Source: a virus
Virus record (IMG/VR): IMGVR_UViG_3300006028_000021
Span: 1 to 37,487 of that record
Strand: one strand, 5' to 3'
DNA length: 37,487 bases
A program made the translations under genes and the position numbers. How positions within the stretch are numbered: position 1 is the first letter of the stretch; every line of letters begins with the position of its first letter. The notes under the pieces were generated by a model. That model made no database searches, was not told the origin of the DNA, and saw only the letters and a program-made list of their open reading frames with translations. Positions 472-30,610 of this stretch are shown in pieces.

Positions 472-483
472 TAGCAGTTGCTA
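472..483. promoter_or_regulatory. Palindromic operator candidate TAGCAGTTGCTA
   Basis: This is a 12-bp inverted repeat in the divergent control region. It is identical to the site at 30587-30598 and near-identical to those at 4099-4110 and 24397-24408. On the minus strand it abuts a TAAAAT -10 box, as the other three abut TATAAT or TATACT. A related GCTA-N5-TAGC inverted repeat follows at about 506-518. Confidence 0.6.
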
Positions 484-531
484 CTAGTATTTTGCCGTTT
501 TATGTGCTAAGCGATAGCTAAAAAATATCAC

Positions 532-560
532 TTGCGAAAGCTATTGTGCGCACCTATACT
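532..560 (+). promoter_or_regulatory. Rightward sigma70-like promoter of the regulator/primase operon
   Basis: -35 TTGCGA (532-537), 17-bp spacer, -10 TATACT (555-560). It is followed 26 nt later by the ATG at 587 with an AAGGAG ribosome site. The 11 bases CTATACTCGCG at the -10 are repeated exactly at the structural-operon promoter near 4596. Confidence 0.7.
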
Positions 561-586
561 CGCGCTAAGAGTTCAAGGAGAAACAC

Positions 587-823
587 ATGGTATCGAATCG
601 CTTTAAAAAGTGGATGGAAACAACAACACTACTCCGGAAAAAGGAGGTCGCGCGCCAAGCCAAATCCTCGCATATCCTGTTCTACCATCTCGCTACCGGC
701 TACCGTAACGCGTCCAACGAACTCGCGGCTCGGGTTGAACATGCCGCGAACGGGGAACTGGACCGGGGGGATCTGAACGCGACTTGTGCTTCGTGTAAGT
801 ATTACAAGGAGTGCAAGAAATGA
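587..823 (+). CDS. Small Cro/YdaS-like helix-turn-helix DNA-binding protein
   Basis: A 78-aa protein whose central part (about residues 20-58, RKKEVARQAKSSHILFYHLA then ...NASNELAARVEHAANGEL) has the pattern of Cro/YdaS-type HTH proteins, in which the end of the recognition region is followed by a conserved S-x-ELA-x-R-[IV]-E-x-A motif. The C-terminus adds CASCKYYKEC, a possible metal-binding knuckle. The start is fixed by AAGGAG 7 nt upstream of ATG. It is first in the rightward operon and its stop overlaps the next gene's start. By analogy it would be a transcriptional regulator, and it is the best candidate to bind the TAGCA-NN-TGCTA palindromes. The HTH call rests on motif resemblance, and the DNA target is inference. 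Confidence 0.6.
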   Translation: MVSNRFKKWMETTTLLRKKEVARQAKSSHILFYHLATGYRNASNELAARVEHAANGELDRGDLNATCASCKYYKECKK

Positions 824-1065
824 GCGACGAAACAAAAGCTTATTCACGTGGTTACTATGCGGGTCGTAGTCGTCTCAAGAGAGACGTTTCGTATGATCGT
901 CTTCAAAAATCAAGAACGGCTTTCAGAGATAGAGCTTTTTTAGCCATATTACCTTTTGCTTTTCAACAAGATAGTTGGACACAAAACGGGAAACCGATAA
1001 AGTCCGTAGCTGAACGTGTCAATTTAGCCTGGACTATTGCAAACGAAGCTGTGAAAACTAAATAA
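820..1065 (+). CDS. Hypothetical 81-aa basic protein
   Basis: The ATG at 820 overlaps the previous stop (ATGA), and AAGGAG at 806-811 sits 8 nt upstream, so this start is preferred over the in-frame GTG at 811. The protein is rich in Arg, Lys and Tyr (N-terminus MSDETKAYSRGYYAGRSRLK) and has no motif I recognise. Base composition is more AT-rich than its neighbours, which hints at separate acquisition. It lies between a regulator and the primase-helicase and ends just before a hairpin. Confidence 0.7.
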   Translation: MSDETKAYSRGYYAGRSRLKRDVSYDRLQKSRTAFRDRAFLAILPFAFQQDSWTQNGKPIKSVAERVNLAWTIANEAVKTK

Positions 1066-1070
1066 ATCCA

Positions 1071-1107
1071 AAGGCCCTGGACCGCCGCCACCGGCATCCA
1101 GGGCCTT
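1071..1107 (+). terminator. Strong hairpin between the small gene and the primase
   Basis: An 11-bp perfect stem (AAGGCCCTGGA / TCCAGGGCCTT) encloses a 15-nt loop. It is followed by only a weak T run (GTTGCCTCTT), so it may attenuate rather than fully stop transcription into the primase gene. It lies 23 nt upstream of the primase ATG, so it may also influence translation. Confidence 0.5.
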
Positions 1108-1129
1108 GTTGCCTCTTGGAGCGCCTTCA

Positions 1130-3079
1130 ATGCGATACTTAAAAGAATACGGCGCGCAGTTAGTCGCGCTCGGTTATTCCATCATCCCACTACCCCCTGG
1201 CACGAAAGGCCCCCGCAAGCCCGGTTGGCAGAAAATAACAGCAACCCCTGAACTTGTAGACGCCTGGCTGGCGAATGGCTCAGCCGACGACGGTATCGGT
1301 GTTCTCGCCGCCCACACGCCGGCCATCGATGTGGACATCATGGACGCCCAAGTAGCCGAGGAAGTGCGCCGGCTCCTGGAGCGTCACTTCGGACCTGTGC
1401 TGCACACCCGTGTCGGCATGGCGCCGAAGTTCCTCGTACCGTTCCGGTGCGCCACGCCTTTCAAGAAGTTGTCTTCCCACTACTACACCGACACCGTCAC
1501 CGACATCGATCACCACGTCGAGATCCTGGCCGAGGGCCAGCAGTGGGTCGCGTACCACGAGCACCCTGACACCCACCAGCCCTACACCTGGCCACGTGGC
1601 AATCTTCTGGACTTGCCCTACGCCGAGCTGCCTCTCTTGTCCGAGTCAGCGGCCGCAGCCTTCGTCGCCGGCTTCGAGGCCATCGCCTCCCGGCTTGTCG
1701 ACGCCGGCCAATGGGAGAAAAAGGTACGCGTCGCCGACACACCGACAACGCCCAAACCTAGCGACGACCCGCTCCTGACGTGGAAACCTACCATCGACTT
1801 CAAGACCTTGAAGTCCGCCTTAGCCAAAATCCCGAACAAAGGAAAAGACGAGCTCGATTACGACGCGTGGCGCAATATCATCTTCGCCATCCACCGCGAA
1901 ACGCAGGGCGCCGACCACGGCCGCCAGCTGGCACACGCCTGGTCAGCACGCTCCAGCAAGCACGACGCCGCATTCCTGGACGAGCGTGTATGGCCTTACA
2001 TCCACAGTGATCGCCCCGGCGCCGTCACCGGTCTGACCATCATCAAGCTGGCGCGTGGCTACGGCTGGGAATCCGCGGCCCCCGCAAAAATAGACCGGCT
2101 CCCCGCCAAACTGCTGCAGCTGTCCGATTTTGCCCAGCTGAAACCTGTCAGCTGGCTCATCAAGAGCATCCTGCCGGCCGCGGAGGTGGCGATCTGTTAC
2201 GGGGCTTCCGGCTCAGGCAAATCGTTTTTCGTACTGGACATGGCCGCCGCCGTCGCGCGCGGTATTGAGTGGCGCGGGCACCGCACCAGACAGTGTCCTG
2301 TCGTCTATGTCGCCGCTGAGGGCGCCGGCGGCTTCCGCGGCCGTACCGTCGCCTACGGGCGCCATAACCACCTTGACCTGGCCACCGTCCCCTTCTACGT
2401 GCTGCCGTCCATAATCGACCTGGCAGACGACTACCCCCAGCTGATCACCAACATCGATGAGATAGGCGGCGCCGGCCTCGTTGTTGTCGATACCCTGGCC
2501 GCCACCACGCCGGGCATGGACGAGAACACCGGCAAGGACATGGGGCGCGTTATCGACGCCTGCCGCCAGATCCACGACGCCACGGGCGCTATGGTGTTGC
2601 TGATCCACCATAGCGGCAAGGATGCAGCGCAAGGTGCCCGCGGCTGGTCGGGCTTGCGCGCAGCCTGCGACGCCGAGTTCCAGATTACCCAGGAGGGCGA
2701 TACCCGCGCTGCCCGCGTCACCAAGCAGAAAGACGGAGAGGAGGGTCAGGAGTACGGCTTCAAGCTGCAGGTTGTCGAGATCGGGGAAGACGAGGACGGC
2801 GATCCGATCACGTCGTGCGTTGTAACAGCTGCCGATGTCGTTAAAGCAACCCCACGCGTCAAACTCTCCGACGCCCAGCAATTCATACTGGATGTCTTCG
2901 ACCAGGCGCTCGGCATGGATGATTCCTTAACGGAGGTGGAGCTGATCGACGCCGTAAAAGCGGCGCAGAAAGAGTACGGCGATACGCCATCAAGGGCTTC
3001 CAACATCAAGCGTTCCATTGAGAGAATTGTCGAGTATGGTATATTGGACACGTCTACAGGTAAAATTTTACGTGCTTAA
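1130..3079 (+). CDS. Bifunctional primase-polymerase / RecA-fold helicase
   Basis: A 649-aa protein that should prime and unwind DNA at the phage origin. Residues 1-190 match the Prim-Pol domain: the catalytic D-x-D is at about 67-69 (AIDVDIMD) and a His-containing HHVEILAEGQQW segment at about 128-140. Residues about 230-310 resemble a primase C-terminal (PriCT-like) linker (YDAWRNIIFAIHRE). Residues about 350-580 are a RepA/DnaB-like ATPase with Walker A GASGSGKS (358-365), Walker B VVVD (D453) and LLIHHSGK. The C-terminus looks like a winged helix. The ATG at 1130 has GGAG 8 nt upstream, while the longer open frame from 1106 begins inside the hairpin. It ends at an iteron-rich region, as replication initiators often do. 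Confidence 0.9.
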   Translation: MRYLKEYGAQLVALGYSIIPLPPGTKGPRKPGWQKITATPELVDAWLANGSADDGIGVLAAHTPAIDVDIMDAQVAEEVRRLLERHFGPVLHTRVGMAPKFLVPFRCATPFKKLSSHYYTDTVTDIDHHVEILAEGQQWVAYHEHPDTHQPYTWPRGNLLDLPYAELPLLSESAAAAFVAGFEAIASRLVDAGQWEKKVRVADTPTTPKPSDDPLLTWKPTIDFKTLKSALAKIPNKGKDELDYDAWRNIIFAIHRETQGADHGRQLAHAWSARSSKHDAAFLDERVWPYIHSDRPGAVTGLTIIKLARGYGWESAAPAKIDRLPAKLLQLSDFAQLKPVSWLIKSILPAAEVAICYGASGSGKSFFVLDMAAAVARGIEWRGHRTRQCPVVYVAAEGAGGFRGRTVAYGRHNHLDLATVPFYVLPSIIDLADDYPQLITNIDEIGGAGLVVVDTLAATTPGMDENTGKDMGRVIDACRQIHDATGAMVLLIHHSGKDAAQGARGWSGLRAACDAEFQITQEGDTRAARVTKQKDGEEGQEYGFKLQVVEIGEDEDGDPITSCVVTAADVVKATPRVKLSDAQQFILDVFDQALGMDDSLTEVELIDAVKAAQKEYGDTPSRASNIKRSIERIVEYGILDTSTGKILRA

Positions 3080-3340
3080 CGCGTAAAATTTTACGTTTTA
3101 AATAGGGACTACCTGCTCCGACCACCCCTGTTTTTTGAGGGGGTCGGAGCAGGTAGTCGGAGCAGGTAGCTGCTCCGAGTAAAAAATTACGTGGAGCAGG
3201 TAAAACTTAATAAACATACGGGTTTCGAGAGACCTGCTCCGACCTGCTCCGACCTGCTCCGACCTGTCGGAGTAAGCTGCTCCGGCTGCTCCGACCCCCT
3301 ATAGGGGGGAGGAGCCGGAGCAACCGGAGTCGAGGAGCTG
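3060..3340. other. Candidate replication origin: AT-rich palindromes and CCTGCTCCGA iterons
   Basis: The 12-bp palindrome GTAAAATTTTAC occurs at 3060-3071 (overlapping the primase 3' end) and 3083-3094. It is followed by many copies of CCTGCTCCGA or its complement: direct copies at about 3112, 3233, 3243 and 3253 (three head to tail at 10-bp spacing), inverted copies at about 3143 and 3158, and partial copies at about 3171, 3192, 3278, 3287 and 3314. Such arrays beside a primase-helicase gene are typical of origins. No convincing gene lies in 3080-3345. This is an inference from architecture. Confidence 0.6.
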
Positions 3341-3345
3341 AGAAA

Positions 3346-3543
3346 GTGAATATGCGAAAAGATACGACTTTGTGTTTCAGGTGCGGAAAACCGTTTCAGA
3401 CGGGTTTGATTGAGATGGTCAGACGCAAGCATCAGATTTGTCCGGCTTGCGTTTCACGAGACAGCGCCACCGCCGTAAAGGACTCACAGGCCGCGATTGC
3501 GGGGCCAGGTTCAACGATCAATGGTAAGGGAGTACTGGAATAG
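3346..3543 (+). CDS. Small Zn-ribbon protein
   Basis: A 65-aa protein with two CxxC pairs (Cys10/13 and Cys32/35; CFRCGKPF and CPACV), the pattern of a treble-clef or zinc-ribbon fold. The GTG at 3346 has AGGAG 8 nt upstream, whereas the ATG at 3352 would be 14 nt away, so GTG is preferred. It lies directly after the candidate origin and before a terminator, so it may belong to the replication/early unit. Function is unknown: a nucleic-acid-binding or protein-interaction role is possible. Confidence 0.7.
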   Translation: MNMRKDTTLCFRCGKPFQTGLIEMVRRKHQICPACVSRDSATAVKDSQAAIAGPGSTINGKGVLE

Positions 3544-3551
3544 GGGAGAAG

Positions 3552-3596
3552 CCCGAAAACGGCTAAAAACGCGTTTTAAACGGTTTCGGGTTTATT
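3552..3596. terminator. Bidirectional terminator between convergent units
   Basis: CCCGAAAACG (3552-3561) pairs with CGGTTTCGGG (3581-3590) with one mismatch, followed rightward by TTTATT. The complementary strand also reads A/T-rich flanks. It separates the rightward Zn-ribbon gene from the leftward small-gene cluster ending at 3592. Confidence 0.65.
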
Positions 3597-3783
3597 GTAG
3601 TGTCAAAGCTGCAATAGCGATGCCGGGGTTTGCCAACAGGAGACCGTCGCGGTCGTCAAAGCCCAAGAGCTCGGCCAGCTTGTCGCCCATCATCTCGAAA
3701 GTTGGGTACACGTCGCTGACCATGTACCCAACAGGGATTTCGGAGGACGGCACAAAGAGACCGTAGACGAGGAACTGCTTCAT
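3592..3783 (-). CDS. Hypothetical 63-aa protein (third gene of leftward pocket)
   Basis: The ATG at 3781-3783 overlaps the stop of the preceding gene (ATGA), so the two are translationally coupled. The product begins MKQFLVYGLFVPSSEIPVGY and ends IAIAALTLQ, with an acidic centre (LAELLGFDDRDG). Its first residues resemble the N-terminus of its upstream neighbour, perhaps short paralogues, but the similarity is weak. No domain is recognised. Confidence 0.6.
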   Translation of the reverse strand: MKQFLVYGLFVPSSEIPVGYMVSDVYPTFEMMGDKLAELLGFDDRDGLLLANPGIAIAALTLQ

Positions 3784-3941
3784 TGCAGGGCAATCGCGGC
3801 GTACGGCACCGAGCGGGCGTAGAACAGGCGCTCGAATGGATGGTAGGCGTCGGCATACGAGACGTACTCCAGGTAGCCGCAATTGATGTCCAGGGCGGGA
3901 CATTTGGGCTCTTGGCCCATGAGAATGAGGACGTGGTTCAT
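3780..3941 (-). CDS. Hypothetical 53-aa protein (second gene of leftward pocket)
   Basis: The product reads MNHVLILMGQEPKCPALDIN then GYLEYVSYADAYHPFERLFYARSV, rich in Tyr, with two Cys. The ATG at 3939-3941 lies two bases after the upstream stop (TGATCATG). A longer open frame runs upstream to 4175, but the operon spacing supports this short start. Function is unknown. Confidence 0.55.
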   Translation of the reverse strand: MNHVLILMGQEPKCPALDINCGYLEYVSYADAYHPFERLFYARSVPYAAIALQ

Positions 3942-3943
3942 GA

Positions 3944-4066
3944 TCAGATCACCCCGCAAGTGAGCAGGCAAAAGGCTGCGGTGACGATGATAGCAGCGAC
4001 GAGCAGACCCATGATGGCGAAGTCCATGAGTTTGTCGAGCGTGTTGTCGTAGTCCGAAGGTTCCAT
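3944..4066 (-). CDS. Tiny single-span membrane protein (40 aa)
   Basis: The product has an acidic N-terminus (MEPSDYDNTLDKLMDF) and one long hydrophobic segment (IMGLLVAAIIVTAAFCLLTC). The ATG at 4064-4066 has GGAG 8 nt upstream and lies about 29 nt from a good -10 box. It heads a three-gene leftward unit. Small single-span phage proteins of this kind can affect the membrane or act as inhibitors, but nothing specific can be said. Confidence 0.6.
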   Translation of the reverse strand: MEPSDYDNTLDKLMDFAIMGLLVAAIIVTAAFCLLTCGVI

Positions 4067-4094
4067 GATGTTTTCTCCGAGTTGGTGAAACTTG

Positions 4095-4122
4095 AGTATA
4101 GCACTTGCTAAAACAAAGGCAA
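4095..4122 (-). promoter_or_regulatory. Leftward promoter with overlapping palindrome TAGCACTTGCTA
   Basis: On the minus strand -35 TTGCCT (4117-4122), 16-bp spacer, extended -10 TGCTATACT (TATACT at 4095-4100). The palindrome at 4099-4110 covers part of the -10 and the spacer. This is the same layout as at 24393 and 30583. It drives the three tiny genes 4066-3592. Confidence 0.65.
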
Positions 4123-4631
4123 GCGATTCGTGCGTATGGTGACGCTTGCGTCAGGCGCGCGTATAGAGAGCGCATGACGAGGCTAACTATGCAAGAAAAG
4201 CATAACGTTAAAAAGTGACAACAAACCGAAACGGTGACTGCGACATTTTCTTAAGGAAGTGGCACGGGTCCGAGACCCCAAAACATGCACCGCGATCCAC
4301 CGACAGCCGACCAAGTTAGCAAGCACTTACATCAAACCGATGGTGCGGTGCGTCACGACCAAAAGGCCCCGATTCGTTATGCCCGACAAGATACAACGTG
4401 TTCTAAGTCATTGATTATAAAGGGTATTGCAGTGCAACATACGCATAATCTATATTATGTAAAATGACCCTTTTGCGCGAAAACCCCCGATTCGTTATCA
4501 AAATGCAAACTCTGGGGGCCCTCCCCCGAGGGACGGGTGGGTTATGATTTTTGTAGACCACGTTACCGATCCGCGTACCGAAAAACACGCATCTGCTATA
4601 CTCGCGAAAAATTACCAACTAATCGGAATCC
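4123..4631. other. Non-coding leader of the structural operon (small direct repeat, promoters)
   Basis: I find no convincing gene in this stretch. It holds a 14-bp direct repeat CCCCGATTCGTTAT at 4367-4380 and 4485-4498, a possible rightward promoter (TTGCAG 4427-4432, 18 bp, TATATT 4451-4456), a G/C hairpin zone at 4514-4532, and an extended -10 TGCTATACT at 4594-4602. A packaging or regulatory role is possible because it lies just upstream of the terminase gene. Confidence 0.4.
4594..4607 (+). promoter_or_regulatory. Extended -10 promoter of the structural operon
   Basis: TGC-TATACT (TATACT at 4597-4602) followed by CGCG. It shares CTATACTCGCG with the rightward promoter at 555. The -35 region is weak. 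A half copy of the operator palindrome (TGCTA) overlaps the -10. The terminase ATG is 30 nt downstream. Confidence 0.55.
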
Positions 4632-6638: not shown

Positions 6639-6799
6639 TGGCCGTTACCAAGACAATTCACCCGAAAGCCCCGTCGCAAAAGCCGACGGACTTTTTCAAA
6701 GGCAAGCAGCAAGGCGGCGCCCATGGCAAGCCGCAATCGGTCCCGGAGAAGCTGACCGGCGGTCCGATGCGCGAAAAAATGGCGAAGAAGGGGCTGTGA
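6638..6799 (+). CDS. Hypothetical 53-aa basic protein
   Basis: The product reads MAVTKTIHPKAPSQKPTDFF and continues with Gly/Lys-rich sequence ending MREKMAKKGL. AGGAG at 6627-6631 is 6 nt from the ATG at 6638 but only 3 nt from the ATG at 6635, so the former is preferred. It overlaps the terminase stop by one base. Likely disordered and basic. Small basic proteins are common between terminase and portal genes, and function is unknown. Confidence 0.65.
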   Translation: MAVTKTIHPKAPSQKPTDFFKGKQQGGAHGKPQSVPEKLTGGPMREKMAKKGL

Positions 6800-6801
6800 T
6801 C

Positions 6802-7032
6802 ATGGGCATCATGGAAAACGTTGCGGCTGACCAGGCCGCCGTGGCCGCGGCACAAGCTGCGCTCGACACCGCCAATGCACAACTTGCCAAGGACCAGGCC
6901 GCCCTGGACGCGGCGCAGCCCCACGTTTCTCTGTGGGAAGAAGTTGTCGCCGAGGCCGACAAGCTGGGCGCCGACGTTGCCGCACCGTTCGCCGCGCTTG
7001 CGGCGCGCGCCAAGACACTGCTGGGGCTGTGA
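6802..7032 (+). CDS. Alanine-rich coiled-coil protein (76 aa)
   Basis: Residues about 5-45 form an Ala/Gln/Asp heptad-like helix (VAADQAAVAAAQAALDTANA...), ending in an Ala-rich helix (FAALAARAKTLLGL). The ATG follows the previous stop by 2 nt (TGATCATGG), the same junction found before the next gene. Probably a small structural or assembly protein, with no family recognised. Confidence 0.65.
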   Translation: MGIMENVAADQAAVAAAQAALDTANAQLAKDQAALDAAQPHVSLWEEVVAEADKLGADVAAPFAALAARAKTLLGL

Positions 7033-7034
7033 TC

Positions 7035-7229
7035 ATGGCGATCAAAAACGACAAGATGCGCGGCCACGCCGGCAAGAACTGGTCAAAATCCGTGGACATG
7101 CGCTCAGGCGGCGTCTATGACAAAACGTCCAAGAAACCGGAACCGGACGACAAGCCGGCGAGAACCCCCAAGGAGCGCAACACCGGCACCACGGTTGCCA
7201 AGCGCCTGGCGGGTAGGGTCATAGGGTAA
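7035..7229 (+). CDS. Hypothetical 64-aa basic protein
   Basis: The product begins MAIKNDKMRGHAGKNWSKSV and is rich in Lys, Arg and Pro, with a basic C-terminus (VAKRLAGRVIG). The ATG is 2 nt after the previous stop in a TGATCATGG junction. No known domain. It may be disordered and nucleic-acid-associated. Confidence 0.65.
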   Translation: MAIKNDKMRGHAGKNWSKSVDMRSGGVYDKTSKKPEPDDKPARTPKERNTGTTVAKRLAGRVIG

Positions 7230-11829: not shown

Positions 11830-12590
11830 GCGCACTACTTCGCAAACTGCTGGCAAGTCTGTTCCTCGGTATCGATGACGACGATTTGCCAGGACCACCA
11901 GGTGACGAGGACGACGATACGCCACCAGGTGACGAGGACGACGATACGCCACCAAGTGACGAGGACGACGATACGCCACCAGGTGACGAGGACGACGATA
12001 CGCCACCAGCGCGCCAAACCCGGCGCGTATCGCGGGACGATTCCAGTTCACGCGCGGTAGAGGCAGCGCTTGAACGCGCGCGTCGGCTTGAAGAAGACGT
12101 TGAAACGCTGAAACGCAGTTCTGCAACGCCTTCCGAAGATCAGCGCCTGCGCGCCGACGAAGACCGTCAGTTGCAGGACCCGCAGACCGATCCTATGGTC
12201 AAGTGGCAGATCAATGCCAATCGTACCCTGCGCGAAACGCAGCAAAACGCCAATCGCGCACTGGCTGAGGCCCGGGACATGCAGGATCGGGCAGCGTTCA
12301 TGTCCAAGGCTGCCGCCGACCCGCGCCGCGCCAAGTACGAGGAACGCATCGAGAAAGAATTGAAAACACTGCGCAACAAGGGCCAGAACGTTGACCGCGA
12401 AACACTGTATTTCTACCAGCTCGGCAAGGACATCGCCGAAGGCAAATTGAAGCCGGCACCGAAGAAAGCGTCCAACGCTGCAAACGTACCGCGTGGTAGA
12501 ACGCCGGCGGCGCGCAGTGACGTACGATCACGAGGAACAAGCAGAAGTTCGTCAGGCGCGCGTGAACGCCTGGCAGACAAACCCATTTAA
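11826..12590 (+). CDS. Putative capsid scaffolding protein with acidic tandem repeats
   Basis: A 254-aa protein immediately upstream of the major capsid gene, the usual scaffold position. Residues about 17-60 hold four copies of the acidic unit GDEDDDTPP (one reads SDEDDDTPP), then a basic/charged helical region (EAALERARRLEEDVETLKRS; RTLRETQQNANRALAEARDM) and a Lys/Arg-rich C-terminus that could bind the capsid shell. The composition is typical of scaffolds, but the repeat is unusual. Confidence 0.65.
   Translation: MSALLRKLLASLFLGIDDDDLPGPPGDEDDDTPPGDEDDDTPPSDEDDDTPPGDEDDDTPPARQTRRVSRDDSSSRAVEAALERARRLEEDVETLKRSSATPSEDQRLRADEDRQLQDPQTDPMVKWQINANRTLRETQQNANRALAEARDMQDRAAFMSKAAADPRRAKYEERIEKELKTLRNKGQNVDRETLYFYQLGKDIAEGKLKPAPKKASNAANVPRGRTPAARSDVRSRGTSRSSSGARERLADKPI
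11895..12002 (+). repeat. 27-bp tandem repeat, four copies, in the scaffold gene
   Basis: Units start at 11895, 11922, 11949 and 11976. They are almost identical and in frame (9 codons). The third unit changes G to A, giving Ser for Gly. High identity suggests recent expansion. Confidence 0.9.
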
Positions 12591-18143: not shown

Positions 18144-18315
18144 GAACCTAGGGGATGGGCTTTCAATCATGACTATGATCGCGGCGTTTGCAGGGTGGTT
18201 GCCCTCTCTCTCGTTACTCGTGACCATCGTTTGGGGGTGCATCCGTATCTACGAGACAGACACCGTGCAACGATGGCTTGGTTACAAAGAAAAGGTGGTG
18301 AAGGATGAACACTGA
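18136..18315 (+). CDS. Putative holin (small membrane protein)
   Basis: A 59-aa protein with one or two hydrophobic segments (IMTMIAAFAGWLPSLSLLVTIVW) and a basic/acidic tail (IRIYETDTVQRWLGYKEKVV). It sits directly before the endolysin gene, the usual holin position. The ATG at 18136 is preceded by a GGAGGG ribosome site. Its stop lies inside the first copy of a 34-bp duplication that precedes the endolysin. Confidence 0.65.
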   Translation: MDKNLGDGLSIMTMIAAFAGWLPSLSLLVTIVWGCIRIYETDTVQRWLGYKEKVVKDEH

Positions 18316-18370
18316 TTTGTTAGCCCAGGAGCTGGAGGATGAACACTGATTTGTTAGCCCAGGAGCTGGA
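18303..18370 (+). repeat. 34-bp perfect tandem duplication at the holin/endolysin boundary
   Basis: Bases 18303-18336 and 18337-18370 are identical. The unit contains the holin's last codons and stop, an ATG, and the first ten endolysin codons. Copy 1's ATG (18305) opens a 14-codon frame (MNTDLLAQELEDEH) that stops at 18349, and copy 2's ATG (18339) opens the endolysin. Because 34 is not a multiple of 3, the first ATG is a decoy. The duplicated coding sequence provides a GGAG upstream of the real start. Confidence 0.95.
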
Positions 18371-22577: not shown

Positions 22578-24200
22578 ATGCCGAAATTTACCTTCACCTC
22601 GCCTGAGGGCAAGACTTATGACGTGGAAGGCCCTGACGGAGCCACCAAAGAACAGGCGTTCGGTATTCTGCAACAGAAACTGAGCGCCGCGCCACCCCCC
22701 GGCCCGGCTGAGCAGATTCCGACAACGAACGCCACTGCACCGAAGCCGCGCCTGGCGCCCGCACCAGATACCGGCGCGCCACGCACCGGGGGCGATGTGC
22801 TGACAGGCTTGGGCGAGACAGCGCTGACCGTGGGCACTGCCATCCCCGCCGGCATCGCGGGCCAGGTCAAAGGCGTCGCGCAGGGTGTGACAGGCGGTAA
22901 GTACGGCACCCAGGCCGGTGTCGCGCAAGCTGCGGATGTGGCGAACAAGTTCACCAAGGAGCACACCTACGAGCCGCGCACCGCAGCCGGGCGGGAGTAC
23001 ACACAGCGCTTGGGTAGCGCGTTCGATGAGAGCAAGCTGGCCGGCCTGTCGCCGGAGGTCGCCATGGGGCAAATTCCCAAAGTACCCCGCGCGGTGAACC
23101 TCGGCGCTGAGGCGCTGGAAGCTGGTGCGTCCAAGGCGGGTAAGACCTTGAGCAAGGCGGCGTTGGGTACGCTGCCGGCTATCGATCCAGAAACCCGCGC
23201 CTTGGCGCGCGAGGCGCACTCCATGGGCTTCCGGCTGCGTCCGGATCAAGTGTATGGCAGCAAGTACGGCAAGATTGCTGGCGAACTGTCGTCGCATGTG
23301 CCGTTCTCGGGGAGCACGATTGACAGCAACCAGGCCGTGTTCAACCGCAACGTGTTGAAGACCATTGGCGGTGAGGGCGACAAGCTGACGCGTCAGGCTT
23401 ACGCTGATGCTATGGAAAAATCAGGGAAAACTATCGGCGACATCGCCGCACGTACGCCTGTTCCTCTCGATAAAGACGCTATTGCGCAGCTTAGTTCGCA
23501 TATAACAGAAGCGCGTGAACTTGGTGGTCGACCTGATATAGCTAGTGCTTTGGAGGGTTATTTAAGCACCCTTAGAAAACAGTCTAAGGGTTCATTTGAC
23601 CCACTCGCGGGGGTTACAGGCAGTAGCAAACAACCTTTGGGGGGTGTTTTGCCTGGAAAAGCTTTCCGTGAAATTAATACCGATTTGAATGATCGTATTC
23701 GGAACACTACAGACGGGGATTTAAAACACGCTTTAAGCGAGTTTCAAGATTCGCTACATGATATTAGAGGCAAGTACCTAACCCCCGAAGACGCTAAGCT
23801 ATATGACACCGCCCGTCGTCAGTACGCCGCCGGTAAAACATTGGAGGGCTTAGTCGCCAAATCACCCACCGGGGATATTCCACCCTCTGCGTTAACTGGT
23901 GCGCTTACAGGCACTAAAGCAGGTAAATCAATGGTAGCTAGGGGGACGGCTGGTGATTTGGGTAAGCTCGCCGACATCGGGCAACGATTCCTGAAAGAAC
24001 CGGCGTCGAGCGGCTCTGCTGAAAGGGGGCTAGTACAGAAAGTGCTGACGGGGGTAGCCGGCGCGGGTGGTGCGTACGCTCTTCCTGCAGCGGCTACTAT
24101 TCCAGGGATAGCAGGGGTGTACACTGGCGCAAACCTGTACAACCGCTACGGGCCGGGTATTACGCAGCGTCTTCTTGAGCGTCCGCCAACTCAGCCTTAA
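22578..24200 (+). CDS. Putative internal virion / ejection protein (540 aa)
   Basis: The N-terminus (MPKFTFTSPEGKTYDVEGPD then GATKEQAFGILQQKL) is a small domain I recognise at the start of phage internal virion proteins, followed by Ala/Gly-rich helical sequence with Pro-rich linkers. I prefer ATG 22578 over the upstream open frame because it begins this domain right after the previous stop. From about 23410 to 23960 the DNA is clearly more AT-rich, which suggests recombination in the middle of the gene. The last 41 bp overlap a convergent gene. Confidence 0.6.
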   Translation: MPKFTFTSPEGKTYDVEGPDGATKEQAFGILQQKLSAAPPPGPAEQIPTTNATAPKPRLAPAPDTGAPRTGGDVLTGLGETALTVGTAIPAGIAGQVKGVAQGVTGGKYGTQAGVAQAADVANKFTKEHTYEPRTAAGREYTQRLGSAFDESKLAGLSPEVAMGQIPKVPRAVNLGAEALEAGASKAGKTLSKAALGTLPAIDPETRALAREAHSMGFRLRPDQVYGSKYGKIAGELSSHVPFSGSTIDSNQAVFNRNVLKTIGGEGDKLTRQAYADAMEKSGKTIGDIAARTPVPLDKDAIAQLSSHITEARELGGRPDIASALEGYLSTLRKQSKGSFDPLAGVTGSSKQPLGGVLPGKAFREINTDLNDRIRNTTDGDLKHALSEFQDSLHDIRGKYLTPEDAKLYDTARRQYAAGKTLEGLVAKSPTGDIPPSALTGALTGTKAGKSMVARGTAGDLGKLADIGQRFLKEPASSGSAERGLVQKVLTGVAGAGGAYALPAAATIPGIAGVYTGANLYNRYGPGITQRLLERPPTQP

Positions 24201-24366
24201 TACGGCGCCGTTTTAAGATATGTTCGTAGATCATCCCGGTGAAGCCCCCGTACCCGCCCCCGATAAGCACCGCGGGAATGAAGTCACCGGTGGTGTATAT
24301 CTGGATGATTTTGAAGAGAACAAAGAAATACAGCACCCCGAAACAAAGTTCAAAGAATTTGCGCAT
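24160..24366 (-). CDS. Small two-span membrane protein (68 aa)
   Basis: Two hydrophobic segments (FFELCFGVLYFFVLFKIIQI; AVLIGGGYGGFTGMIYEHIL) are followed by a basic/acidic tail. AGGAGG lies upstream of the ATG. It is leftward within a rightward region, has its own promoter at 24393, and overlaps the ejection gene by 41 bp at the 3' end. It may be a moron-type gene; function is unknown. Confidence 0.65.
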   Translation of the reverse strand: MRKFFELCFGVLYFFVLFKIIQIYTTGDFIPAVLIGGGYGGFTGMIYEHILKRRRIKAELADAQEDAA

Positions 24367-24392
24367 GGCAACCTCCTGTTAAATGACGCTTT

Positions 24393-24408
24393 ATTATAGC
24401 AGACGCTA
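24393..24408 (-). promoter_or_regulatory. Leftward promoter with overlapping palindrome TAGCAGACGCTA
   Basis: On the minus strand an extended -10 TGCTATAAT (TATAAT at 24393-24398) overlaps the 12-bp palindrome at 24397-24408. The -35 is weak, which the extended -10 may offset. It drives the membrane-protein gene at 24366 and lies within 2 nt of the ATP-grasp start on the other strand. Confidence 0.6.
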
Positions 24409-24409
24409 A

Positions 24410-25750
24410 ATGAAAATACTAATTATCGATGTCGGTTCTAACGCCTTGGACTGGGCGATGCGTTGTCAGTTGTGGGGGCATGAGGTCATGTGGTACGACA
24501 AACCCCGTCCCGACGGCACACATCGTCGCGCCGGCGAAGGCATGATCAAGAAGATCACTGATTTCGATTCTTTGCGCAAGAAGTGGATCGGCTGGGCCGA
24601 CCTTATTTATCTTCCTGACAATACGCACTACGTCGATATGCTGGACCCTTATCAGCGTATAGGTTATCCGATCTTCGGCTGTAACCTAGCGGCCCGCGAA
24701 TGGGAACTGGACCGCGAAGTCGGGCAGAGGGTTATGAAAGACTGCGGCATGCAGATTATCCCCGGCAAAACGTTCCACGACTACGACAGCGCCATTGCCT
24801 ATGTCAAGAAACAGGGTAAGGCGTTCGTGTCCAAGCCGTCCGGCGATGGGGAGCGCGCTTTGTCCTACGTCGCCGATAGCGCCGCCGACTTGGTCTACAT
24901 GCTCGGGCGCTGGAACAAAATCGATAAATATCGGAAATCGGCCAAGGAGGAGGGGTTTATTCTCCAGGAAAAGATTTCCGGTATGGAAATGGCTTGCGGC
25001 GGGTGGTTCGGTCCCGACGGCTGGAGCAAGTATTTCGTCGAAAACTTCGAGAACAAGAAACTCATGAACGGTGATCTCGGGGTTAATACAGGGGAGCAAG
25101 GAACTTCAATTGCTTTGGTTAAAAAGTCAAAATTAGCCGATCAAGTTTTGATCCCGGCTACAAAACATCTGCAGGATATTGGGTATGTTGGTTACGTCGA
25201 TGTCAACTGCATGATAACCGAGGAGGGTGTGCCCTTTCCGCTTGAATGGACTATGCGTGACGGCTGGCCTATACGGCACAATTTGACCTCCCTTATTCTC
25301 GGGGACCCCGCGCAATGGATGCTGGATAAGTTGAACGGTAAAGACACGATGAAAGTCAAAGAAAATACTGTCAGTGTAAGTGTAGTAATGGCTCTGCCGG
25401 ATTATCCTTACTCCAAAATAACCAATAAAGAATTGTGCGGAATTCCTATTTATGGTGCTGACGACATGGAACATATTCATCTGTCAGAAGCCATGATTGG
25501 TGAAGCCCCGACCAACATTAACGGGAAAGTAGTTGACCTTCCTTCCTTGGTCACGGCGGGGGACTACGTACTAGTAGCGACGGGAGAAGGAGCAACGCTC
25601 ACCGGCGCGCGGCGCGGAGTGTACGCGGCGTTAAAAAAAGTGAAAATACCCAACAGCCCTTTCTACCGCACTGATATCGGCGCCGGGCGGTTAAAGAAAC
25701 AACTTCCCATTTTACATGAACTCGGTTATGCTAAAGCCTTCGATTTTTGA
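24410..25750 (+). CDS. PurD-like ATP-grasp ligase
   Basis: A 446-aa enzyme with the GAR-synthetase (PurD) layout: an N-terminal nucleotide-fold segment (MKILIIDVGSNALDWAMRCQ), a central ATP-grasp (AFVSKPSGDGERALSYVADS, FILQEKISGMEMACGG, YVGYVDVNCMITEEG, PLEWTMRDGWP), and a PurD-like C-terminal module (VSVVMALPDYPYSK, GDYVLVATGEGATLTGARRG, FYRTDIGAGRLKK). The usual PurD GGREHAL motif is only partly kept, so the substrate may differ. It could support purine or nucleotide metabolism or a ligation reaction. An AT-rich stretch spans about 25085-25510. Confidence 0.75.
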   Translation: MKILIIDVGSNALDWAMRCQLWGHEVMWYDKPRPDGTHRRAGEGMIKKITDFDSLRKKWIGWADLIYLPDNTHYVDMLDPYQRIGYPIFGCNLAAREWELDREVGQRVMKDCGMQIIPGKTFHDYDSAIAYVKKQGKAFVSKPSGDGERALSYVADSAADLVYMLGRWNKIDKYRKSAKEEGFILQEKISGMEMACGGWFGPDGWSKYFVENFENKKLMNGDLGVNTGEQGTSIALVKKSKLADQVLIPATKHLQDIGYVGYVDVNCMITEEGVPFPLEWTMRDGWPIRHNLTSLILGDPAQWMLDKLNGKDTMKVKENTVSVSVVMALPDYPYSKITNKELCGIPIYGADDMEHIHLSEAMIGEAPTNINGKVVDLPSLVTAGDYVLVATGEGATLTGARRGVYAALKKVKIPNSPFYRTDIGAGRLKKQLPILHELGYAKAFDF

Positions 25751-25761
25751 AAGTTTTAGCT

Positions 25762-26298
25762 GTGAAAAAATGTACTAATTGCGGTGAGTTAAAATCTTTA
25801 ACCCAGTTCGGGAAAAAGACTCGTGCTCCGGATGGTTTGCACTGGGAATGCAAAACATGTAGAGCTACGGAAAGCGCAGCGTATCGTGCAAAAATGCAGA
25901 ACGTTATTAACGAGAAACAAGCTAAAAAACGCGCTGAAAATCATGAATTAGTCATAGCGCGTCGTAGACAATACACCGCAAAAAACAGAGAACGTTTAAC
26001 AGAACAAAATAGAAAATATTACGAAAATAATAAGGGGTCAGAGAATGCAAAGGGTGCTAGATACAGAGCTAAAATACTCCAAGCAACACCGCTTTGGGCT
26101 GATCATAGTAAAATTTTAGAATATTACGAAAACGCACAAGAATTGAGCGTTCTTATAGGCGAACCGTGTCATGTAGACCACATTGTTCCGTTACAAAGCA
26201 AGATAGTTTGTGGATTGCACGTAGAGCACAATTTACAAGTGCTTCCGGGTTTAGAAAATAGAAGTAAAGGAAACCGGCATTGGCCGGATATGCCATGA
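25762..26298 (+). CDS. HNH endonuclease (probable homing type)
   Basis: A 178-aa protein. The N-terminus has two CxxC pairs (CTNCGELK, CKTCRATE), a zinc-finger-like domain often preceding phage HNH nucleases. A long basic helix follows (ENHELVIARRRQYTAKNRER). The HNH core is VDHIVPLQSKIVCGLHVEHN, then LENRSKGNRH. The GTG at 25762 starts MKKCTNCG, but a TTG at 25747 overlaps the previous stop and has a similar claim. DNA is much more AT-rich than its neighbours, as in recently transferred genes. Its place before the small terminase could also reflect a packaging role. Confidence 0.85.
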   Translation: MKKCTNCGELKSLTQFGKKTRAPDGLHWECKTCRATESAAYRAKMQNVINEKQAKKRAENHELVIARRRQYTAKNRERLTEQNRKYYENNKGSENAKGARYRAKILQATPLWADHSKILEYYENAQELSVLIGEPCHVDHIVPLQSKIVCGLHVEHNLQVLPGLENRSKGNRHWPDMP

Positions 26299-26825
26299 GA
26301 CGTTCTATGCGTTCCGGCCTGATTTCCGAGGCATCCATCAAGGCAGTGCTCACCGAGACCAAGGGCGACCTGTTCCTGGCCGCCTGCGCGCTTGATTGCA
26401 CGGTGCGTGAACTGGATCAGTACATCCGGCGTTCCCCGCTCCTGCAAGCATTTGCCTCGACCGTGGAGCAGGTTAAAACCGATCCTGGTTATGACCGCAT
26501 GAGCGCGGAGCAGTTCGAGGCGCAAGTGACGATCCTGTCCCGGTCCTATAAGCTGGATGGGCTGAACGAAATCCATACCCTGGCGATGATGCCGATAGGC
26601 GAATCGGCTGCCATGGCTAAAGTGAAGTTGGAAGCAGCCGTAGCGCTTCGAGGCGGGGCTTCGCATACAGGGCACGGTGGCGAAGCCGAGGCGGCACTGG
26701 CCGAGCTGAACCAACTCTACCAGGCCAATGCGCCACGGATCCGCGAGATACGCACCACTGTGGTCACGTTGACAGATGAGCGGGTAGCGCCTCCACATAC
26801 CTTTGAACTTCCTGCAGATCGATAA
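26295..26825 (+). CDS. Terminase small subunit candidate
   Basis: A 176-aa protein. Residues about 1-50 have helix-turn-helix character (EASIKAVLTETKGDLFLAAC then TVRELDQYIRRSPLL), a middle of helices for oligomerisation and a short C-terminal tail. This fits phage TerS, which recognises the packaging site. The start ATG overlaps the HNH stop (ATGA). It lies 20 kb downstream of TerL rather than beside it, which lowers confidence. Its 3' end overlaps the convergent gene by 62 bp. Confidence 0.5.
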   Translation: MRRSMRSGLISEASIKAVLTETKGDLFLAACALDCTVRELDQYIRRSPLLQAFASTVEQVKTDPGYDRMSAEQFEAQVTILSRSYKLDGLNEIHTLAMMPIGESAAMAKVKLEAAVALRGGASHTGHGGEAEAALAELNQLYQANAPRIREIRTTVVTLTDERVAPPHTFELPADR

Positions 26826-27648
26826 ACGCCGTATCGTGCAGTTTCTGGATCTTGTCGAAGTTCGGTTCCTCTACCGGGTACACATGCAGTCGAGTCAGGC
26901 TGATATGCCCCTGGCGCGCCATCTCCTTCACCGCCCGACGCCACGGTTGCAAAGGCTGGCCCAGCTTCACGAACTGGCGCACACCGTTCACCGCTTCGAC
27001 TTGTTCGATCAGGTCCCATGCCTGAGTTAGTGCGGCGTCTTCCGGCCGGATCCGTAGCTTTACCGACCACACCTCATGCGGTCTTAGCGTGTGACGCATG
27101 TACATGATGTGTTGCGCCGATAACCCGCTGGCTGTGCACAGTTCACTATCCGTCATTACCCGCAGGCTGTCGGGGTGCTTGGAGATGGCGGCCGCGCTGG
27201 CGCGCTCCGGAATATCGCGCAGCACATCCCATATCTTGCGGCAGGATTCGACAGACGGGATTTTCAGTTCCAGCGTTTCGAAATGGGAACGCCAGCTAGG
27301 CGGCTTGAACACCACCGTCTGCTGTTCGGTGTGGATACGCGACCAGTCCAGCGTGCGCACAGCCGAGGGGCATTCAACGTGGATCAGCGCATCGTGGTCC
27401 CCGATCCCGTACGACGAGCTGGAACGGTCGATCAGGACGCCGCCTTGTTCCCGCCATTTCGCCAGCTGACCGAGCGATGCTTTATCCCAGTCCGCGTAAA
27501 TGAACACCGGCAAGTGGGCGATCAACCCACTTTTGAAATACACCGGGTTCATGATCTGGTACGAACGGTTCACCACAACGTGCGTGAACTGCTGGTGGGC
27601 GTTGATCACGGACATGGCGACGTTGTCGGTAGAGAAAACCTTGGACAT
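26764..27648 (-). CDS. Hypothetical 294-aa protein (last gene of left operon)
   Basis: Globular, mixed composition, no transmembrane segment or signal peptide. Segments include FTHVVVNRSYQIMNPVYFKS and KSGLIAHLPVFIYADWDKAS and a C-terminal half with a possible HTH-like repeat (HPDSLRVMTDSELCTASGLS). I do not recognise a family. The ATG follows the previous stop by one base. It ends 62 bp inside the small-terminase candidate on the other strand. Confidence 0.7.
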   Translation of the reverse strand: MSKVFSTDNVAMSVINAHQQFTHVVVNRSYQIMNPVYFKSGLIAHLPVFIYADWDKASLGQLAKWREQGGVLIDRSSSSYGIGDHDALIHVECPSAVRTLDWSRIHTEQQTVVFKPPSWRSHFETLELKIPSVESCRKIWDVLRDIPERASAAAISKHPDSLRVMTDSELCTASGLSAQHIMYMRHTLRPHEVWSVKLRIRPEDAALTQAWDLIEQVEAVNGVRQFVKLGQPLQPWRRAVKEMARQGHISLTRLHVYPVEEPNFDKIQKLHDTAFIDLQEVQRYVEALPAHLST

Positions 27649-27649
27649 G

Positions 27650-28021
27650 TTACCGCCCCAGTACCTTGCGCGCGGCGTTGCGCACTTCCTCGGTGACGTT
27701 CAGCGCGTAACAGTCTAGGTCCAACAACGCCTCGATGAAATTCCTGTATTCCATGATCGTTTTGGCGTTGCTGTCGGGACCGATGACACCGGTCGGTTTA
27801 GTGTTGAGAGAACCCCAGGTGTTCATGGCGACGAAGCCGTTATCCTGCTGCGTATTAGCCGCTGATTTCGCTGAATTTATACGTTCAACGAACGATGTTT
27901 GGTGTTGCGTGGCCTTAGCGCTTTGCTCGATCACAGTTACCCGCTTATCTAACTCACTGACCCAGTCAGTGAGACGTGTTACCGCCATTTCAGCGTCCAC
28001 AAAACCGTTAATTTTAGGCAT
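27650..28021 (-). CDS. Hypothetical 123-aa protein
   Basis: An N-terminal helix/coiled coil (TRLTDWVSELDKRVTVIEQS) is followed by a globular part with KTIMEYRNFIEALLDLDCYA. I prefer ATG 28021 over 28024 because AGGAG then lies 6 nt upstream, as in the terL downstream gene. It overlaps the helicase stop. No family recognised. Confidence 0.65.
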   Translation of the reverse strand: MPKINGFVDAEMAVTRLTDWVSELDKRVTVIEQSAKATQHQTSFVERINSAKSAANTQQDNGFVAMNTWGSLNTKPTGVIGPDSNAKTIMEYRNFIEALLDLDCYALNVTEEVRNAARKVLGR

Positions 28022-29454
28022 CATTTTCTCCTTTTCATCGCGTTTAACAGCGAATCCTGCACGCTGCGTTTTGTTTCCAAGCGGTCCAGCACGTCATAAT
28101 CGAGCGTACCGTACGCCAGAATGTAGTGAATAAACACCGGCCTGTCGTGTCCGGCTTGTAACTGCCTTGTCGGACCGATGCGTTCAATGATTTGCTGGTG
28201 TTCCTCAAGGTTCCAGTTCACCGAGAAGAACACCAGGGTGTTACCCCCGTCTTGCAAATTTAAGCCGTGCCCCGCAGAAGCCGGATGAGCAAGGAGCATG
28301 CGAATTCGCCCATTATTCCAATCAGTAATAGTGGAAGGATCACTGTCCAGAGCACGAGCATAAGGGAAAGCGTGGCGAATGCGCGCAAGGTCGTGCTTAA
28401 AATGGTAAGCAACCAGCACAGGAGCACCACCAGACTCTTCCATAATGTCGTCAAGGGCTTGTAGTTTTGCATCGTGTATCTCCTGCCAGTTATATGAGTC
28501 ATCGGTGTAAATCGCACCGTTTGCCAGTTGCAAACATTTTTGCGTCTTTGCTGCTGCGTTCAGGGCCTCGATCTCGACTTCCGCTTCGAGTTCCAGGAAC
28601 ATCTTTTTTTCCATGTCGCGGTACTGCTGCATCGCTTTCGCCGGTAAATGGACCGGGATCACGTTCTTGATCGGCTCCTTGAGATCGAACCAGTCCTTCG
28701 CCTCCAGACTCAACGAACAATCCGCTATCGCCGCTTGTATAGCTTCTTGAGCGCCGGGCAGCGGCTCCACGCCGAAGCCGTCATAACTAGGCTTGAACCA
28801 ACGTTGCGTAAATGCCGTGTATGAGCGCCCGAGCCGAGAACCCCCATCAACGAACCATTGCTGCCCCCAGAGGTCTTTGAGTCCGTTTGGGGCGGGCGTT
28901 CCTGTAAGGTTGACCCAGCGCCGGACTTTACGATGCGCCACCTCAGCGAGGGCTCGACCTCGGATACTTCCACCTGTTTTCTTGATAAACTCAGTGCCTT
29001 TTTTACTTGTTTGCGTACTGATCCTCGTACTTTTAAGCTTCGTCGACTCATCGGCGATAACCGAGGCAAACGGCCACGGTTTCGGGTTGTGTTTGAAGTA
29101 ATCCACAAGCCAAGGTAAGTTTTCATAGTTCGTTGTGAAAACAGAAGCGTTCCGGTTATTCAGCGCCACGGTACGGCGGTCCTTGGGGCCTAGTATCGGT
29201 TGCACTTCTATGTTGCGAAGGTGGTCCCACTTCTTCGCTTCATCCGGCCAGGTGGATTGCGCCACGCGTAACGGCGCGATCACCAGGGTCGGTTGCGTTT
29301 CCCCGCCTGCCAAATACAGTCGTTCCAGCGCCGTCATGGTCGATACCGTTTTCCCGAGCCCCATCCCTGCAAAAACATTCGTGCGCTGGATTTCGATCTG
29401 GAAATCGGTAATCAAGTCCTGGTAGCCGCGGGGCACGTAAATTTTACGGGTCAT
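28021..29454 (-). CDS. SNF2-type superfamily 2 helicase
   Basis: A 477-aa ATPase. Walker A GMGLGKTVS is at about 30-38, motif II is DEST in VIADESTKLK, and motif III is in LTGTPAPNGL. The C-terminal helicase half has GHGLNLQDGGNTLVFFSVNW and a motif VI-like QQIIERIGPTRQ, where SNF2 enzymes often have QRxxRIGQ. Such helicases are common in phage replication modules beside VRR-NUC nucleases and probably remodel DNA or forks. It overlaps both neighbouring genes by 3-4 bases. Confidence 0.9.
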   Translation of the reverse strand: MTRKIYVPRGYQDLITDFQIEIQRTNVFAGMGLGKTVSTMTALERLYLAGGETQPTLVIAPLRVAQSTWPDEAKKWDHLRNIEVQPILGPKDRRTVALNNRNASVFTTNYENLPWLVDYFKHNPKPWPFASVIADESTKLKSTRISTQTSKKGTEFIKKTGGSIRGRALAEVAHRKVRRWVNLTGTPAPNGLKDLWGQQWFVDGGSRLGRSYTAFTQRWFKPSYDGFGVEPLPGAQEAIQAAIADCSLSLEAKDWFDLKEPIKNVIPVHLPAKAMQQYRDMEKKMFLELEAEVEIEALNAAAKTQKCLQLANGAIYTDDSYNWQEIHDAKLQALDDIMEESGGAPVLVAYHFKHDLARIRHAFPYARALDSDPSTITDWNNGRIRMLLAHPASAGHGLNLQDGGNTLVFFSVNWNLEEHQQIIERIGPTRQLQAGHDRPVFIHYILAYGTLDYDVLDRLETKRSVQDSLLNAMKRRK

Positions 29455-29681
29455 GCCGCTGGTGTATTTGGGGGAGCCGGAACGATAATCGGATCAAACC
29501 CCGCGGCATTTGATCCGCATTTCGCGTTGTCTTGGCGGCTTACAACGGGATTTGTTTCGACCATGACAGGATTCCCGAAAACGGGGTCCAGTACCGTAAC
29601 AGGGCCCATCCAGTTGCAGCTAGGCCTCGAGTACAGCGGGTCGAACGGGTTGAACCGCGTACAGTCTTTGCAGAAATTCAT
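29451..29681 (-). CDS. Small Cys-rich hypothetical protein (76 aa)
   Basis: The ATG at 29681 is coupled to the VRR-NUC stop and has GGAGG upstream; a longer open frame to 29750 is less likely. FCKDCTRF and later single Cys residues (SCNWMG, AKCGSN) suggest a zinc-binding module. Pro-rich C-terminus. Function unknown. Confidence 0.6.
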   Translation of the reverse strand: MNFCKDCTRFNPFDPLYSRPSCNWMGPVTVLDPVFGNPVMVETNPVVSRQDNAKCGSNAAGFDPIIVPAPPNTPAA

Positions 29682-29974
29682 CGCTTGGCCCCTCCTAAAA
29701 CAACGTAGTTGATAAAACGGTCCGTTTCCTCGTAGCTGTGGATCACCCACACCTCGCAGCCCATTGCCCTCAACCGTTTATGTTCACGCAGCTGGTCAGG
29801 GGCCGGCTCTTTGCCAGGGGCTTTCAACTCGACAAAAAAGACCTTGCCGAAAGGCTCGAAAATCGCCAGCTGGTCAGGTACGCCGCGCCGGCCAGGGCTG
29901 ACAAACTTACGGGTCATCCCCCGGGTTTCCTTGACGCGGCGCTTGAAGTACGCCTCGACAAGCGATTCACGCAT
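29678..29974 (-). CDS. VRR-NUC domain nuclease
   Basis: A 98-aa PD-(D/E)xK nuclease. The N-terminal helix (ESLVEAYFKRRVKETRGM) leads to GRRGVPDQLAIF (Asp) and FFVELKAPGKEPAPDQ (ExK), the VRR-NUC signature. The minimal size is normal for phage stand-alone forms, which act as structure-specific nucleases. The in-frame extension to 30073 overlaps the upstream small gene; the ATG at 29974 is coupled to that gene's stop and is preferred. Confidence 0.85.
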   Translation of the reverse strand: MRESLVEAYFKRRVKETRGMTRKFVSPGRRGVPDQLAIFEPFGKVFFVELKAPGKEPAPDQLREHKRLRAMGCEVWVIHSYEETDRFINYVVLGGAKR

Positions 29975-30149
29975 GACTGGCGCGACCCAGCTGGAGGCGC
30001 AACAACTGTGTGTGCTTGTCGCGGCACAGGCGTTCGTAGTGCAAAGTGGAGCGTTCAACGTGATCGCGTTCACGATCCAGGGCGTTGAGATGTGCGGCGA
30101 TGCTGCGGATTTGGCGCCGAAGAACCCAGCGACGGATGAAATTTTTCAT
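29967..30149 (-). CDS. Small basic coiled-coil protein (60 aa)
   Basis: The product reads MKNFIRRWVLRRQIRSIAAH then a charged helix (NALDRERDHVERSTLHYERL). GGAG lies upstream of the ATG. Its stop overlaps the VRR-NUC start. It may bind DNA or the nuclease, but no family is recognised. Confidence 0.6.
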   Translation of the reverse strand: MKNFIRRWVLRRQIRSIAAHLNALDRERDHVERSTLHYERLCRDKHTQLLRLQLGRASHA

Positions 30150-30164
30150 GATTTTCTCCTATAG

Positions 30165-30548
30165 CTACTTAACGAGAATATCGGGCATGATCACCGAGGG
30201 TTTGAACACGACTCTGTAGTGGAAGGTACTCACAGCGGTAGGTTCAAGCTGCTCTATAAAATACGTCACATTGTCCGACAGTCCGAGAAAATGTTTCTTG
30301 AATGTCGTCGGACCAGTTTTGCAAGTGATTGATATTTTGCGTAGTGTATCAGCGTCCAAGGAGCAAAGCCCTTCGATACTGAGCATGTATTCACCAGTGA
30401 TGCTGTTATAAAACACAACACGGCGGTTGATTTCAAAGTTGTCTGCTGCCTGGGATAAATTATGGGAAGCGACTTGGGCGTCGTTCGAACAACCTAGAAT
30501 TGATGCTGTGATGGCGAAAACGGTGATTAAAAGTGGAATACGATTCAT
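30165..30548 (-). CDS. Lipoprotein (beta-sandwich phage lipoprotein type)
   Basis: A 127-aa protein with a lipoprotein signal: a hydrophobic stretch ending SILGC, with Cys20 as the lipidation site and Ser at +2, which favours the outer membrane. The mature part is beta-rich (RRVVFYNSITGEYMLSIEGL, NVTYFIEQLEPTAVSTFHYR) and resembles a conserved phage beta-sandwich lipoprotein family I have seen in related phages. It has its own near-consensus promoter with the shared palindrome. A role in superinfection exclusion or surface conversion is plausible but unproven. Confidence 0.75.
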   Translation of the reverse strand: MNRIPLLITVFAITASILGCSNDAQVASHNLSQAADNFEINRRVVFYNSITGEYMLSIEGLCSLDADTLRKISITCKTGPTTFKKHFLGLSDNVTYFIEQLEPTAVSTFHYRVVFKPSVIMPDILVK

Positions 30549-30582
30549 GATTTTTCTCCTGTGATTGTTGTGTTACGGCTTA

Positions 30583-30610
30583 ATTATAGCAGTTGCTAAA
30601 CGTGTGTCAA
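30583..30610 (-). promoter_or_regulatory. Near-consensus promoter with overlapping palindrome TAGCAGTTGCTA
   Basis: On the minus strand a perfect -35 TTGACA (30605-30610), 16-bp spacer, and extended -10 TGCTATAAT (TATAAT at 30583-30588). The palindrome at 30587-30598 lies over the -10 and spacer, so a bound protein would block RNA polymerase. The -35 overlaps the end of the polymerase gene. This is the strongest promoter in the window and drives the lipoprotein gene. Confidence 0.85.

Follow-up and report, generated by a model that had tools for sequence, protein, structure and literature searches.

A palindromic operator dispersed over early promoters in a group of uncultivated phages, and a Cro/YdaS-like protein as its probable reader

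Introduction

Is a 12-bp palindrome that recurs beside distant leftward promoters of one phage genome a shared operator, and if so, which protein reads it? The window, meaning the whole stretch of DNA analysed, is a 37,487-base virus record. Its leftward genes begin at 375, continue through the join and end at 26,764; among them are those for exonuclease, SSB, DNA polymerase, nuclease and helicase. The rightward genes comprise cro78 and a primase-helicase gene followed by terminase, portal, capsid and tail genes. A reading of this DNA from the letters alone (hereafter the sequence-only reading) had proposed one operator at four leftward -10 boxes, acted upon by a single regulator as a switch, with a 78-aa Cro-like protein as the candidate. 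In the usual view Cro is the partner of CI. The comparison with related phages presented here makes it fairly likely that TAGCA-N2-TGCTA is the binding site of this protein, Cro78, in a dispersed Cro-only regulon that would lower early transcription and spare the late promoter.

The operator motif

The operator consensus is TAGCA-N2-TGCTA with TT before one arm. All four 12-mers of the sequence-only reading are present with the sequences given, three as perfect 5+2+5 palindromes (472, 4099 and 30587) and the one at 24397 with a single mismatch, and the motif exceeds chance: TAGCANNNGCTA has seven strand matches in the window against 0.16 expected, and none of 100 shuffles reaches seven. Among perfect 5+2+5 palindromes the top half-site is TAGCA (three in the window, six in relatives), and when spacings of 0-15 were scanned the TAGCA palindrome was found at spacing 2 only. 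Because the 5+2+5 count becomes unremarkable when one mismatch is allowed (TAGCA then ranks 46 among the window's 1024 half-sites), the case for an operator rests on position and conservation. The four sites all fall within the approximately 5% of the window that lies outside the gene list (non-coding), and each is followed by a minus-strand -10-like hexamer, as had been described.

The control region before cro78

A sigma-70-like consensus scan of 380-620 found two promoters in the control region before cro78 (430-590): the leftward early promoter PL of the replication operon (432-460, minus strand; TTGACT 460-455, 17 bp, TAAATT 437-432) and the rightward early promoter PR (532-560, plus strand; TTGCGA 532-537, 17 bp, TATACT 555-560). 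Three operators, which like the others are listed without a strand, occupy this divergent region. O1 (472-483, TAGCAGTTGCTA) is kept in G001, G002, G004, G005 and G021. O2 (509-520) is a degenerate AAGCGATAGCTA, weak alone in the window, and reads TAGCAATTGTTA in G004 and TAGCAACTGCGA in G005. O3 (526-537, TATCACTTGCGA) is likewise degenerate in the window, reads TAGCACTTGCGA in G002, and covers the -35 of PR. The start-to-start distances of the three, compared by eye, are 37 and 17 bp. A three-operator array at this place is found in the window (G000) and in the same five contigs that keep O1, lying at 6820, 6858 and 6877 in G005, and two operators are found in G023 and G024. The earlier list of four sites was thus right in each member and incomplete, as the weaker operators at 509-520 and 526-537 join that at 472-483.

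The register of O1 probably differs from that first described. PL, judged by eye, is kept in relatives, where the operator precedes the PL -35 by 7-11 bp; the distance from O1 to PL in the window is 11 bp. The TAAAAT beside O1, taken previously as a -10, has no clear -35 partner and is CAAAAT in G005, and for these reasons O1 is treated here as lying upstream of PL. Same-register overlap with a -10 holds at 4099, 24397 and 30587 and probably fails at 472, where the conserved PL starts 11 bp further on.

Dispersed operators and the units behind them

At the three remaining places the operator sits in the spacer of a leftward promoter and abuts the -10. The copy at 4099-4110 (TAGCACTTGCTA) lies in the promoter (TTGCCT 4122-4117, 16 bp, TATACT 4100-4095) of a small-gene pocket (3592-4066, minus strand), and is kept in G001, G002, G004, G016-G018 and G022-G024. 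The ORFs of the pocket (3944-4066, 3780-3971 and 3592-3807), two of which are conserved in relatives, gave no family match. Direct and inverted copies of TACCTGCTCCGACC cluster at 3107-3330, directly after the primase gene, and could be a replication or regulatory element.

The copy at 24397-24408 (TAGCAGACGCTA, one mismatch) overlaps a leftward extended -10, TGCTATAAT (24398-24393), with no clear -35, and stands over the gene for a predicted membrane protein of 68 aa (24160-24366, minus strand). Its counterpart in G002 is perfect (TAGCAGATGCTA), and in G004 neither this gene nor its operator was found. Divergent from the membrane protein gene, 24410-25750 encodes a phage ATP-grasp protein with GARS-like domains that is conserved in relatives.

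The copy at 30587-30598, identical in sequence to O1, lies in a leftward promoter behind the DNA polymerase gene (TTGACA 30610-30605, 16 bp, TATAAT 30588-30583), and this operator-promoter is kept in G002-G005, G021 and G023. Between it and an older unit starting at 30149 lies a lipoprotein gene (30165-30548, minus strand; Phage_VG64, PF25682), which the sequence-only reading had counted as a meaningful part of the circuit. That part of the proposal was rejected: the gene was not found in the ten relative contig pieces searched, and since relatives keep the operator-promoter behind the DNA polymerase gene without it, the lipoprotein looks like a passenger. The same protein matches phrog_478, named 'recombination directionality factor'. 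This name looks doubtful for a protein with a lipoprotein-like N-terminus and no integrase alongside, and it was not relied upon, the Pfam match being Phage_VG64 and no integrase having been found.

Conservation in related phages

Searches with Cro78, polymerase and primase yielded 12 related uncultivated phage contigs (G001-G005, G016-G018 and G021-G024). Gene homology and the site map place orthologous operators in these contigs before cro78, at the small-gene pocket after the primase gene, at the 68-aa membrane protein gene and in the promoter behind the DNA polymerase gene; the arms are held and the two central bases drift. In an alignment of 24 copies embedded in promoters, hardly any change is seen in the arms or in the TT before them, the -10 reads TATAnT, and the centre varies far more. 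A 16-bp spacer separates this -10 from a -35 that mostly resembles TTGAC or TTGC, although the membrane protein promoter lacks a clear one. Recurrence of the motif at matching promoters of relatives, proposed earlier as a check, is found across the 12 contigs, and the sites together with their orthology support the idea of one palindromic operator common to several early units. Motif matches also occur in the more distant polymerase relatives G013 and G014. When viral contigs were scanned for the whole -35/operator/-10 pattern one contig matched, G003. Near-identical sequence to the first 25 kb of the window gave no match in the phage collection, and bacterial genomes scanned with Cro78 and terminase gave no relative, in scans that reach close relatives only and leave room for prophages.

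Cro78 as the candidate reader

The gene cro78 (587-823, plus strand) is the first gene of the rightward early unit, beside the multi-operator divergent region, and encodes a 78-aa Cro/YdaS-like HTH protein with a CX2CX5C tail, the presumed operator reader, with orthologues in relatives. The window's Cro78 has no Pfam or PHROG match, its profile reached only E 0.91 against a YdaS PDB chain, and the orthologue from G004 scored E 2.6e-4 with HTH_3, short of the cut-off; since it thus falls outside the curated families YdaS and HTH_3, Cro78 is called YdaS-like and not a YdaS family member. The structure model (pLDDT 88.9 from eight sequences, 61 from five) has the small all-helical HTH fold of the lambda-repressor/Cro class. 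Its best fold match is YdaS of CP-933P (Foldseek E 6.5e-3, Z 8.4; best non-YdaS match Z 5.5), for which structures 8co2 and 8c7k are in the PDB, followed by P22 c2, Xylella Cro and lambda repressor, with fold E-values that are modest.

Distribution of the protein and its presumed site agree. All nine Cro78-encoding contigs carry operators (the window, G001, G002, G004, G005, G017 and G021-G024, less duplicates), and Cro78 is present in every relative with a sequenced control region, the operator contigs without it being fragments. Position 3 of the half-site is G in 70 of 72 half-sites in clades A and C versus 6 of 20 in G004 and G021/G022, and the predicted recognition helix of Cro78 differs in those same clades with position-3 variation. 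This covariation favours Cro78 as the operator reader, with a weight limited by few lineages, shared ancestry and operators picked by the analyst. The array at its own gene, the co-occurrence with operators, the predicted HTH fold and the position-3 variation along Cro78 clades all point to the 78-aa protein named in the sequence-only reading as the likely reader.

Lifestyle of the group

Peptidase_S24, used with HTH_3 to search for a CI-type repressor, and the tyrosine integrase family PF00589 had no match in the window, G002, G004 or G023, of which the contigs may be incomplete. Both were present in the four temperate controls (BPP-1, BcepC6B, Acinetobacter phage 4316 and Yersinia phage YeP4). 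Neither the window nor its relatives gave an HTH_3 match above the cut-off, and no PHROG integrase was found in the window; the earlier remark that no integrase is recognised is borne out for these searches. Cro78 is the only regulator candidate found. As distant relatives keep the site at the same places, early genes throughout this group, where neither a CI-type repressor nor an integrase was detected, are probably under a single regulator. In the four controls, too, the replication operon lies opposite primase and the gene of a small regulator; carrying CI and integrase, they have neither Cro78 nor the operator array. The simplest story would be a temperate ancestor that lost CI and integrase and kept Cro. 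A switch, as first proposed for the operator set, is plausible, but with no CI-type repressor detected nothing points to a two-state switch like that of lambda.

A model for the regulon and its alternatives

In the proposed mechanism, where binding by Cro78, repression, its timing and whatever O1 does at PL are inferred, the operators O1-O3 would act between the divergent promoters PL, which serves the replication operon, and PR, which serves cro78 and primase, and single operators inside three more leftward promoters would serve the small-gene pocket, the 68-aa membrane protein and the unit behind the DNA polymerase. Accumulating Cro78 would fill these operators and block RNA polymerase sterically where the site lies in the -35/-10 spacer or over the -35, so that Cro78 would lower its own synthesis and early transcription would fall as infection proceeds. 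The terminase promoter provides an internal control. Its extended -10 (4594-4602, plus strand, TGCTATACT) is conserved and the upstream half-site is not, and it is not counted as an operator. A promoter of this kind would stay open, and late transcription would escape. The placement of sites in spacers or over a -35, together with a spared terminase promoter, argues that Cro78 probably lowers early transcription, including its own.

That the palindrome is a promoter element only, a TGC-TATAAT extended -10 with an inverted half arising by chance, is hardly credible. TGC-TATAAT is indeed an extended -10 and occurs at the terminase promoter as well, and it is precisely there that the upstream TTTAGCA/TTTTGCA half, nearly invariant in the 24 sites, is not conserved; the extended -10 was rejected as a sufficient explanation on this ground, and neither O2 nor O3 is placed at a -10. 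It is also very unlikely, though less so, that Cro78 binds the operators and activates PL, O1 being centred near -53, which would make it a redirector of early transcription and not a general repressor. The position of O1 upstream of the PL -35 also suits activation, and conservation of an operator there, at a distance of 7-11 bp, extends from G000 to G024, but the other operators lie in a spacer or over a -35, where an activator is unexpected with a 16-bp spacer.

An unlikely but more serious alternative has the operator read by an unrecognised phage repressor or a host regulator, with Cro78 as neighbour or competitor in the manner of Cro and CI. Many genes of the window gave no family match, among them several for conserved leftward proteins, and two readers are usual in systems of this type, since PaaR2 and YdaS of CP-933P share overlapping sites (PMC8630535). 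Against such a reader, Peptidase_S24 was matched in 0/4 genomes versus 4/4 temperate controls, no HTH_3 match exceeded the cut-off in the window or relatives, the array is at the cro78 gene, and operator variation tracks the Cro78 clades. Cro78 itself remains the favoured reader.

Relation to known systems

Dispersed operators and YdaS-like Cro proteins are already known. YdaS of the E. coli O157:H7 prophage CP-933P binds at PRM and PR by gel shift and footprint and was argued to be a Cro analogue; the bound region contains inverted repeats with half-site GTTTAGTAA, the exact YdaS site being left open (PMC8630535). It resembles Cro78 as the best fold match over almost the whole protein, as first gene of a rightward unit at a divergent control region, in having several operators, and in that its repeat half-site GTTTAGTAA is similar to GTTTAGCA here (PMC8630535). 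YdaS differs in sharing ~19% identity and in belonging to a lambdoid region with the CI analogue PaaR2 and the CII analogue YdaT, whereas Cro78 has the CX2CX5C tail and operators here lie also at distant promoters. The temperate podoviruses BPP-1 (Bordetella) and BcepC6B (Burkholderia) share the layout of exonuclease, SSB, polymerase, nuclease and helicase opposing a cro-like gene and primase, and their polymerase is 57-59% identical to that of the window, but they have cI, an integrase and a different Cro, and no TAGCA-N2-TGCTA within one mismatch.

Sites scattered over a phage genome at several distant promoters are also seen for P1 C1, where one repressor with 22 dispersed operators represses lytic genes (PMC8546580), and the window likewise has the same site at several distant promoters. 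P1 C1 is a lysogeny repressor with an asymmetric 17-bp site, whereas the site here is a palindrome and its reader appears Cro-like. The operator and stoperators of L5/D29 are 13-bp asymmetric sites that mostly halt elongation (PMC5712189); the sites here, in contrast, lie within promoters. A limited literature search found no description of a Cro-only dispersed regulon in non-integrating phages. In this group the early regulon, spread over the genome, seems to be run by a Cro/YdaS-like protein alone, while syntenic temperate relatives carry CI and integrase. The role of Cro alone, the rebuilding of a circuit after loss of lysogeny, and the joint change of operators and recognition helix are testable here. 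The case also shows that comparing relatives can bear out a regulon first read in raw DNA, with no need of gene annotation.

Additional features

The CX2CX5C tail of Cro78 (CASCKYYKEC, residues 67-76, window 785-814) is invariant in all Cro78 relatives, and the window's protein has no cysteine outside it. The tail is similar to cysteine patterns of metal or Fe-S sites. That Cro78 responds to metal or redox state, its tail binding a metal or Fe-S cluster and making the shut-off of every early promoter depend on host state in phages without detectable CI or integrase, permitting a reversible carrier state without integration, is a rather improbable extension of the model.

Several repeats were also noted. 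Both contig ends (1-160 and 37193-37487) carry 12-bp tandem repeats, AGTCGCGGCCnn, inside what is apparently a single DUF6745-containing leftward gene, and as both ends fall in this one repeat it probably marks the cut in a circular or permuted molecule. GTCGGCG repeats, similar to those at the contig ends, precede cro78 in L057, L058 and L059. In a protein of the structural region, an acidic PPGDEDDDT-like repeat is encoded by 27-bp tandem repeats at 11868-12029. A 34-bp direct duplication (18293-18360, 91% identical) lies at the start of a lysozyme-like gene, the start region of which is duplicated.
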